A DNA stretch of 64,000 nucleotides from an uncultured Veillonellaceae bacterium (GTDB lineage: Bacteria; Bacillota; Negativicutes; Veillonellales; Veillonellaceae). A program made the translations under genes and the position numbers. The stretch's first letter is position 1. Each line of letters opens with the position of its first letter. Positions 52,330 to 54,729 of the stretch are shown piece after piece. The notes below the pieces were generated by a model, which was not told the origin of the DNA, searched no databases, and was given only the letters and a program-made list of their open reading frames with translations. The stretch lies in the NCBI GenBank assembly GCA_945867815.1, contig CAMBIX010000009.1, positions 1 through 64,000 of the forward strand, in the 5' to 3' direction.

Positions 52330-53496
52330 TTATTTATTTGAAATGGCATTACCAATACTATTAATAGCACTAGATACCTCTTTTTGCATTTCATCCGTTA
52401 CATGGGTATAGATAGCAAGAGTAGTACGTGGGTCATTGTGGCCAACTCGTTCCATAATGGCTTTAAGAGGAACATTAGCTTCTGCAAGAAGACTGATATG
52501 AGTATGTCTAAAAGTATGAGTGCTTACAGGCTTGTGGAAGTGCGTGCGTTTAATGATTTTGTTTACAAAGTGTATATCATAAGGAAGACCACCATCAGTA
52601 ACAAATATGTAATCATTTTTAGCAACGTTGCTTTTCCAAAGTATGCGGGCTTTGTTGGCCAAGATAAAATGATTGATAATTCTATCGGCTCTAGCATCAA
52701 GAGAAACTTTACGAATGGAATAAGCATTTTTAGGGGATAATCTCATAGCACTGTTAGCTAAACTACCACGAGAGGAAAGGGTACCATTAACATCAATGAC
52801 TTTATTCTTGTTGTCATAGTCTTGTATGCGTAGGGCGACTAATTCGCCAAAGCGAAGACCTGTAAGGGTCTGAAATTCACATATCAGGGAAACAGGGGGA
52901 TTAATGTCATTAAGTTTGGACAATAACTCTTTTAGTTCAGCTTTAGTAAGAAATTTAGACCGATTTTTCTTAACTTGAGCCACAGACATAGATGGCTTAT
53001 GGAGTTGGATATTATCAAGAAAACGAATATCAGAAATGTAGCCCATACGATGGGCATATCGCAAGGTTTGGCGAATGAGTCCGAGTAATGCTTTGGCATA
53101 TACATATGATCTTGTCTTTTGAAACTCATCAAATGCTAGTTGGACAGTTGCTGTATTGAGCTTTGAGAGGGCAATATCCTCTTCTAGTAGCATTTTACGA
53201 ATGGCTTTTTGCATACTTACAAGACCGTAATGGGTAGAGTATTTTCTGAAAGCCTTACCAGATTCAATATATTCAGTCATGACATCCATAAAAACTTTAT
53301 TAGAACTAGCCCCTGTACTAGTAGCTAGTTCGATTTTCTTTTGTAATTCATACAGCGCATTCTTTTGTGCTTGCTTAGATTTAGTTGAATAGGTAACGGA
53401 AACTCTTTTTAATTTGCCTGTATAAGGGCATTTATACCGTTCAAAGAATTTATATTTTACTTGGCCAGATTTATAGGTAACGGTTTCCATCCACAT
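52330..53496 (-). CDS. int: Prophage tyrosine recombinase (integrase)
   Basis: A 388-residue integrase. N-terminal arm-binding domain, core-binding domain, and a catalytic domain with Arg in LTGLRFGEL, HTFRHTH (His-x-x-Arg), GHND and the Tyr nucleophile in AIYTHVT. It would integrate the element at the tRNA-Ser gene. The RBS AAGGAG (plus-strand 53508-53513) lies inside a predicted stem; see the adjacent switch feature. Confidence 0.95.
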   Translation of the reverse strand: MWMETVTYKSGQVKYKFFERYKCPYTGKLKRVSVTYSTKSKQAQKNALYELQKKIELATSTGASSNKVFMDVMTEYIESGKAFRKYSTHYGLVSMQKAIRKMLLEEDIALSKLNTATVQLAFDEFQKTRSYVYAKALLGLIRQTLRYAHRMGYISDIRFLDNIQLHKPSMSVAQVKKNRSKFLTKAELKELLSKLNDINPPVSLICEFQTLTGLRFGELVALRIQDYDNKNKVIDVNGTLSSRGSLANSAMRLSPKNAYSIRKVSLDARADRIINHFILANKARILWKSNVAKNDYIFVTDGGLPYDIHFVNKIIKRTHFHKPVSTHTFRHTHISLLAEANVPLKAIMERVGHNDPRTTLAIYTHVTDEMQKEVSSAINSIGNAISNK

Positions 53497-53503
53497 AAAA
53501 AAT

Positions 53504-53589
53504 CACGCTCCTTAGGTATAGCAAAGCTGACCTAGAGCGTGAACCATGATATAATCAATTTGCGAGATTGATGCGGTACCGCTCTAGGT
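53504..53589 (-). promoter_or_regulatory. Alternative-pairing segments over the integrase RBS
   Basis: Three related segments: A (53504-53517) includes the integrase SD on the minus strand; B (53530-53541) pairs with A over 12 bp with a 2-nt bulge; C (53580-53589) pairs with B over a perfect 10 bp. On the integrase mRNA, A-B pairing would hide the SD and B-C pairing would free it, but only if the transcript starts upstream of C. Folding is by eye. Confidence 0.5.
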
Positions 53590-53645
53590 ATTGTATTCAA
53601 TTCTTTCCCTCATCCTGTTGGCGCAGGGTGGGGGATTTTTTATTT
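53562..53645 (+). ncRNA. Predicted ~84-nt small RNA opposite the integrase leader
   Basis: A plus-strand promoter CTGACC-17-TATAAT (53527-53555) has an extended -10 (TGATATAAT), giving a start near 53562. A strong terminator follows: an 11-bp GC-rich stem (53607-53617 with 53624-53634, some G-U) and a T-rich tail. No ORF of note lies between. The RNA includes CCGCTCTAGGT (segment C), which can pair with the integrase SD region ACCTAAGGAGCG. Confidence 0.5.
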
Positions 53646-53664: not shown

Positions 53665-53749
53665 GGGGCTATTTATTAGATAGCCCCAGATATAAAAATA
53701 GGGGCAATACCTTTCGATACTGCCCCCTTAAAAAGAGTCGAACTCTTTT
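53665..53749. terminator. Three hairpins between integrase leader and abi
   Basis: GGGGCTA/TAGCCCC (53665-53671 with 53681-53687), GGGGCA/TGCCCC (53701-53706 with 53721-53726), and near-palindromic AAAAAGAGT/ACTCTTTTT (53729-53749). The last can terminate the minus-strand abi operon. Confidence 0.6.
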
Positions 53750-53769
53750 TGCTCTGTGACAATATCTTA

Positions 53770-54729
53770 TTACACTGGGTACCAAATGTCAATTAATTTA
53801 GAAAGAATATTAAAGGTTTCTTGTATTAAATTATTATGCCTATATGTTCTATCACGATAAAAACGTTTTTTTAATTCCTGAAGTCTTGTGGATATATGTT
53901 GATGAACACCATGACTAGTAACTATTTCTTTGTGTGAATATAAAGTAGTGATTATCTCATAAGTAGTAATTCTATATAAATGCTTTTTGCGAGCATCTGC
54001 TGCGAAGCTTATAGGTGGCTGAGATAATACTCTTTGTATTTCCATATTTGGTCGTCTTTTCAATGGAGAATTAATATTGTTAATAAGGCAATTGTTATGG
54101 GCACAAGCATTTCGTAAATCTTTTACGGTCCACATTAGATATAATCGCCTAGTGAGTTCAGCATCATTTACTTTATCTGCACAGAATTTATAAAAGTGTA
54201 GGTATTGGCCAAATGATAGTATTTCTATAAATACCCATATAGGGCAATCTATTTGTGATGGATTAGATAGATATTTGTTATATAAATCACCGCAATATGT
54301 GCTATTACTGTTTTTAGAAAGGTCAGAAATTAGAATATTCAAACTATCTTTACTTAATTGATTAATATAATCTTTTACTATTTGTGAACCACTGGATTCA
54401 TGTTTTTGTATAGTTTTTAGTAAATGAACTTTAGAAAAATGTTCAATGCTAATTGCCATTTCTAATAAAATTGCTCGCAGTCTATTATCGATTATTGCGA
54501 GATCTACTAAATCGGCAAAATCTAAATGAACATAAAGGCCAGTACTTGGTTCTTTATGATAATTCTTTCTGAAAGCACGAAGTTTGAAATAGTTATTATT
54601 TTCCTCTAAATATTTAGTTGCTTGCGTTTTGCTAAAGTCATTAAATTGCACACCTTTACTTTCACAGTGTTTAACCTGTTCTTTAGCAGTTAAGAATACA
54701 TCGCTAGAAATAATATCACATCCTTTCAA
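53770..54729 (-). CDS. Abi_2-family abortive infection protein (HEPN)
   Basis: A 319-residue AbiD/AbiF-like protein. YLEENNNYFKLRAFRKNY (residues 40-57) is the family's N-terminal signature, and the HEPN RNase-type motif R-N-x-x-x-H is at R206-H211 (RNACAH). It lies in a minus-strand block between integrase and repressor, the usual prophage slot for genes that exclude other phages. It starts 3 bp after the upstream zinc-ribbon gene ends. Confidence 0.85.
   Translation of the reverse strand: MKGCDIISSDVFLTAKEQVKHCESKGVQFNDFSKTQATKYLEENNNYFKLRAFRKNYHKEPSTGLYVHLDFADLVDLAIIDNRLRAILLEMAISIEHFSKVHLLKTIQKHESSGSQIVKDYINQLSKDSLNILISDLSKNSNSTYCGDLYNKYLSNPSQIDCPIWVFIEILSFGQYLHFYKFCADKVNDAELTRRLYLMWTVKDLRNACAHNNCLINNINSPLKRRPNMEIQRVLSQPPISFAADARKKHLYRITTYEIITTLYSHKEIVTSHGVHQHISTRLQELKKRFYRDRTYRHNNLIQETFNILSKLIDIWYPV

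Follow-up and report, generated by a model that had tools for sequence, protein, structure and literature searches.

A predicted antisense-RNA-controlled attenuator upstream of mobile-element integrase genes, with the anatomy of the pT181 repC leader

Control of a recombinase by antisense RNA is familiar from the transposons IS10 (RNA-OUT) and IS200, whose transposases are held down at the level of translation by occlusion of the ribosome-binding site. The terminator hairpin of plasmid pT181 has an AGGAG in its 3' half, at a distance of 12 nt from the start of repC (PMC5435934). For prophage integrases, an RNA-seq report on Streptococcus pyogenes describes antisense sRNAs (SR034, SR071, SR086, and SR106) upstream of four prophage integrases and suggests that they silence the integrase in lysogeny (PMC6431027). 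A further case is the tvrR attenuator, in which a hairpin with a short U-tract limits transcription of a pneumococcal recombinase from the upstream operon, and deletion of which raised expression more than 40-fold (PMC6265443); unlike the element described here, tvrR works without an antisense RNA and is modulated by a toxin-antitoxin homologue (PMC6265443).

During our analysis of a 64,000-nucleotide stretch of DNA from an uncultured Veillonellaceae bacterium (GenBank assembly GCA_945867815.1, contig CAMBIX010000009.1, positions 1 to 64,000 of the forward strand; hereafter "the window") we examined the leader of a tyrosine integrase gene (Table 1). A preliminary description of this DNA had proposed that three segments, A, B, and C, form a switch in which the integrase Shine-Dalgarno sequence (SD) lies within A and B pairs with either A or C, with a small RNA encoded on the opposite strand. 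The core of this interpretation was right, and several of its details were wrong or unproven. The three segments are present with the SD inside A, 11 nt upstream of the integrase ATG, and both folding and covariation back the mutually exclusive B:A and B:C pairings. The B:A stem is 13 bp rather than 12 bp long, with a 2-nt bulge (-19.6 kcal/mol, z -4.5, equalled by 0 of 200 shuffles), and B and C form a perfect 10-bp inverted repeat, as had been claimed (equalled by 0 of 300 shuffles of C). The sequence signals for the opposite-strand extended -10 promoter and terminator, bounding a predicted RNA of ~84 nt over segment C, are also present.

Table 1. Features of the integrase leader and its surroundings; positions are those of the window.
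Feature	Position	Strand	Basis or remark
Tyrosine integrase gene (regulated gene, 388 aa)	52330..53496	-	PF00589, E = 1.3e-21; ATG at 53496-53494
U-tract ATTTTTT, separating the B:A stem from the start codon	53497..53503	-	Sequence
Segment A, ACCTAAGGAGCGTG, 3' arm of the hairpin, carrying SD AGGAG (53512-53508)	53517-53504	-	Sequence, fold; covaries with B
Antisense promoter CTGACC-17-TATAAT, extended -10 TGA	53527..53555	+	Sequence; TGn kept in relatives
Segment B, partner of A (OFF) or C (ON)	53530..53542; C-pairing part 53530-53539	-	Sequence, fold, covariation
Predicted antisense small RNA, ~84 nt (81-84)	53562..53645	+	5' stem-loop whose loop holds the C complement, followed by a hairpin of terminator type; fold z -6.6
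Segment C, ACCTAGAGCG, partner of B, overlain by the antisense RNA	53580..53589	-	Sequence, covariation
Rho-independent terminator of the antisense RNA, hairpin 53606-53635 then T6	53606..53645	+	GUUGGCGC-type conserved loop; stem covaries
Pair of terminator-like hairpins separating the Abi_2 gene from the element	53665..53727	-	Sequence
Candidate promoter for the integrase leader, TTGACA-17-TAAGAT	53764..53792	-	Consensus match only

Judging from sequence and anatomy, we consider it probable that this element is an antisense-RNA-controlled attenuator placed before the integrase gene and built like the repC attenuator of pT181. Sense transcripts arriving from upstream would carry C, then B, then A. 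If C is free, B would pair with it upon emerging, so that no B:A hairpin would form, the SD would stay open, and RNA polymerase would pass (integrase ON). A short antisense RNA, whose own promoter lies between B and C, would pair with C, and B would then pair with A and bury the SD (integrase OFF), with the B:A stem and the U-tract probably terminating transcription just before the start codon. What the sequences themselves show is the set of parts and its conservation, the covariation of C with B and of A with B, the U-tract, and an RNA predicted to form two hairpins; expression of the antisense RNA, the direction of its effect, the choice between termination and translation, and a role in timing are our inference.

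The likeness to pT181 RNAI/repC (and to RNAIII of pIP501 and pAMbeta1) lies in a leader with a pre-emptor, a middle arm, and an AGGAG-bearing terminator arm, and extends in pT181 to an antisense RNA over the pre-emptor and a hairpin immediately before the start codon (PMC5435934). In our element the predicted antisense RNA lies opposite the leader and has its own promoter and terminator, the pre-emptor C pairs with B, the 5' arm of the final hairpin, and this hairpin is by its anatomy terminator-like, upstream of the start codon, and carries the SD in its 3' arm. The element differs from pT181, to which it is likened by anatomy, in that it would control integrases and serine recombinases of integrated elements instead of a plasmid Rep protein. 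Since the genes downstream encode recombinases or, rarely, a D5/DUF5906 helicase, and no plasmid initiator, we call its predicted working pT181-like and do not file it as a member of that group. With IS10 RNA-OUT and IS200 it would share a recombinase kept off by an antisense RNA together with occlusion of the ribosome-binding site; those systems are without a C:B pre-emptor. With the S. pyogenes sRNAs it would share an antisense RNA placed in the intergenic space that precedes int; the accessible part of that report describes no A/B/C switch for them (PMC6431027).

A DNA search of the host genome found three more related sites upstream of other integrases, two of them complete (L003 and L004) and one decayed (L002, G000:C5:126178), where an integrase fragment with the A/B hairpin alone is left; a family-level search found further loci in seven more genomes. 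A covariance model built from 14 elements (R1) had matches in 18 of the order's 61 genomes; a second model (R2) had them in 43 of the class's 380 genomes and in 2 genomes outside the class, from other families of the phylum. Viral contigs in IMG/VR also bear the element; BlastN searches with it gave no match in phage or plasmid collections, and protein-pattern searches with the window integrase returned no viral contigs, only distant genome loci. Lacto-int, int-alpA, and STAXI are likewise RNA candidates near integrase genes, and the region matched no Rfam family at a credible score (the matches, at E-values of 0.4-5, are attributable to chance, with none above the gathering threshold). We extracted 67 elements and used the 63 with intact layout, which form 37 clusters at 80% identity. 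Towards the recombinase, their conserved order opens with the antisense terminator, consisting of an A-run and a GC-rich hairpin, and continues through C, the antisense -10, B, and the SD-bearing A to a T-run and finally the start codon. The downstream proteins (n = 44) comprised 29 tyrosine integrases, 13 serine recombinases, and 2 D5/DUF5906 helicases; in L046 (1501-1629), L053 (1501-1623), and L051 the antisense/leader layout precedes a D5/DUF5906 primase-helicase gene, and C:B pairing is not obvious there. Decayed leaders with the terminator and C alone left were seen at L044 (350-441) and L040 (677-769), beside or away from intact elements. Because the switch recurs before many unrelated integrases, it is probably a shared means by which mobile elements keep the integrase off once established.

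The pairing scheme is carried by covariation, conserved with the three-segment arrangement in dozens of loci. A, B, and C diverge greatly between loci, yet within a locus they are complementary as C:B and as B:A, never as C:A. The C:B duplex averaged -16.1 kcal/mol within its own locus against -9.5 kcal/mol when swapped between loci (sd 0.5; none of 20,000 permutations as good), and the A:B duplex -15.1 against -9.5 kcal/mol, i.e., an excess stability of 6.6 and 5.6 kcal/mol, respectively. The C:B excess persisted in the 21 loci without a common B-core 6-mer (8.5 vs 5.3, 0 of 20,000), where A:B was likewise high; C:A complementarity was not raised within loci in the swapped-locus test, either overall or in these 21 unrelated loci. 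Column-wise, C:B covariation was 0.325 against 0.193 for shuffled (sd 0.023) and at most 0.157 for slid columns, and that of the B:A and terminator stems was 0.488 against 0.169 shuffled and at most 0.072 slid, the latter in an alignment fitted to the structure being tested. A clear C:B helix was missing in a few elements (L073 and L088, p ~0.4; L016, L067, and L095, p 0.06-0.08).

The SD lies inside the switch, as the preliminary description held in proposing control of translation, and what separates it from the start codon suggests transcription termination besides. Of the 8 nt that lead up to the start codon, at least 5 are T in 59 of the 63 elements but in only 6% of 101 control genes, and the mean number of T in those positions is 6.1 for the representatives and 2.2 for the control genes. 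With this U-tract directly behind the B:A stem, the hairpin has the look of both a lid on the SD and a transcription terminator; the U-tract could instead serve translation initiation. We regard as unlikely a switch that works on translation only, in which B:A hides the SD, B:C in long transcripts frees it, and the small RNA represses mainly through an anti-SD loop acting in trans. Such a switch would fit the position of the SD within A in the elements and the resemblance of antisense C to the complement of A (own locus -14.4 vs swapped -11.7 kcal/mol), but the U-tract speaks against it, and the excess in that comparison is 2.7 kcal/mol, much weaker than the C:B relation. Moreover, L074, L079, and L081 have a C:B helix (CATGATTCGC) that is separate from the SD helix (CCTCC/GGAGG), and their antisense C lacks complementarity to the SD. 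The trans interaction between small RNA and SD that had been proposed may occur in loci whose antisense C is similar to the complement of A, and it is not a conserved theme; the sequences point to C, rather than the SD, as the conserved target for antisense pairing.

A translation-only switch would also have a counterpart in seven Streptococcus and Lactococcus phages (L104, L106, L108, L109, L110, L112, and L113), in which a gap of ~120-140 nt before int holds an extended -10 (TGnTAAAAT) for an antisense RNA of two hairpins, together with an SD hairpin that is weak and has no U-tract behind it. The best R2 match among the Streptococcus and Lactococcus phages searched had an E-value of 0.028, and their leaders are apparently a parallel system. 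In equilibrium folding of our elements, masking C lowered the mean predicted unpaired value of the SD from 0.27 to 0.12 (a decrease in 20 loci, an increase in 4), which on average lends modest support to the direction proposed for the attenuator; for the window's own element covering C made no change (0.26 vs 0.28). The OFF hairpin dominated most loci at equilibrium even without the antisense RNA. With OFF dominant and the window's own element unaffected by covering C, the ON state of the attenuator would need co-transcriptional folding.

The antisense RNA is itself a consistent prediction across the relatives. When the -10 was picked by its hexamer alone, a TGn lay upstream of it in 56 of the 63 elements (5.7 expected), and the predicted RNAs of all 37 representatives were strongly stable, each with z -3.4 or lower (mean -5.4), nearly all of them folding into a 5' stem-loop followed by a terminator hairpin. 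The loop of this hairpin is kept in most relatives (GUUGGCGC, GUUGCAGC, GUUGCCGC, and GUUGGUAGC), a degree of conservation not usual in terminators, and it may be a recognition site. We give little credence to the idea that this RNA acts in trans on other integrases or element copies, as an immunity or incompatibility factor, and not on its own gene. An RNA is diffusible, and genomes may hold several copies with different C segments (the host genome has three full and one decayed); however, perfect complementarity in cis is always present, and some co-resident copies have an identical C (L038 and L068 of G055). For the same reason of shared C segments, we rejected sequence divergence as a general incompatibility signal.

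We also considered that A, B, and C might be DNA operators of a repressor controlling the antisense and integrase promoters, given that B sits within the spacer of the antisense promoter and inverted copies flank that promoter. This we judge very improbable, and we rejected it: the segments are wholly different between loci while covarying within each, C and A are not directly related, and A coincides with the SD. In addition, a DNA inverted repeat would show no strand bias of the kind seen in interior non-Watson-Crick pairs of C:B, which favored G·U over A·C on the sense strand (26:12, compared with 227:342 in swapped loci; p = 0.001; 15:8, p = 0.018, in the representatives alone); this points to RNA pairing. 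This comparison was a second analysis chosen after a whole-duplex comparison had failed, and should be weighed accordingly; whole-duplex energies by strand did not favor the sense strand (better in 11, worse in 26), a result that we think is dominated by flanks outside the core helix. That the repeats are arm-type or accessory integrase-binding sites of an attP region, as their position adjoining int might suggest, is scarcely credible and was likewise rejected, as the same element serves unrelated tyrosine and serine recombinases and D5 helicases and has the anatomy of a hairpin, U-tract, and promoter. In the host genome, no second copy of the 3' end of tRNA-Ser (50233), searched as an attachment-site candidate, was found.

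As for the supply of sense transcripts, the attenuator would depend on transcription from upstream, and a same-strand open frame ends at most 60 nt upstream of the element in 38 of 60 loci, consistent with the read-through that had been supposed. At the window, simple prophage read-through is less likely than in the relatives, since two hairpin terminators (53727-53665) follow the adjoining upstream gene. This gene (53770-54729, on the integrase strand) is an Abi_2 (PF07751) gene of phage-resistance type. The promoter-like site and two hairpins in the direction of int that precede the element here (53665-53792) are unlike what is seen in most relatives. The short, silent integrase transcripts starting between C and B that had been postulated are unsupported, as no promoter for them was shown. 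A conserved sense promoter was not found among the elements, a -10 upstream of C being weakly above shuffles (19% vs 7% at a score of at least 5).

Antisense-controlled attenuation is itself already known; what is new, and widespread, is its predicted use on the recombinases of mobile elements. In the openly accessible papers searched we found no antisense attenuator described upstream of integrases. The dozens of divergent predicted attenuators form a natural library and could serve as orthogonal RNA switches. A mobile element needs its integrase on arrival and must keep it off afterwards, which lambda achieves with CII and retroregulation; to our knowledge, the corresponding answer is not known for most Gram-positive-type prophages and serine-integrase elements. 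As the antisense RNA would accumulate only after entry and expression of the element, the integrase would be made on arrival and shut down once the element is established. We suggest tentatively, with slightly less than even confidence, that the element is an undescribed, transferable antisense-attenuator module serving many unrelated mobile elements throughout a class as a timer of their arrival, such that recombinase or element replication genes would fire on entry and then be locked off by termination and SD occlusion as their own antisense RNA accumulates. One RNA module before both recombinase families, with covarying parts and a predicted antisense RNA, would offer a concrete and easily testable answer to how integrase timing is set.
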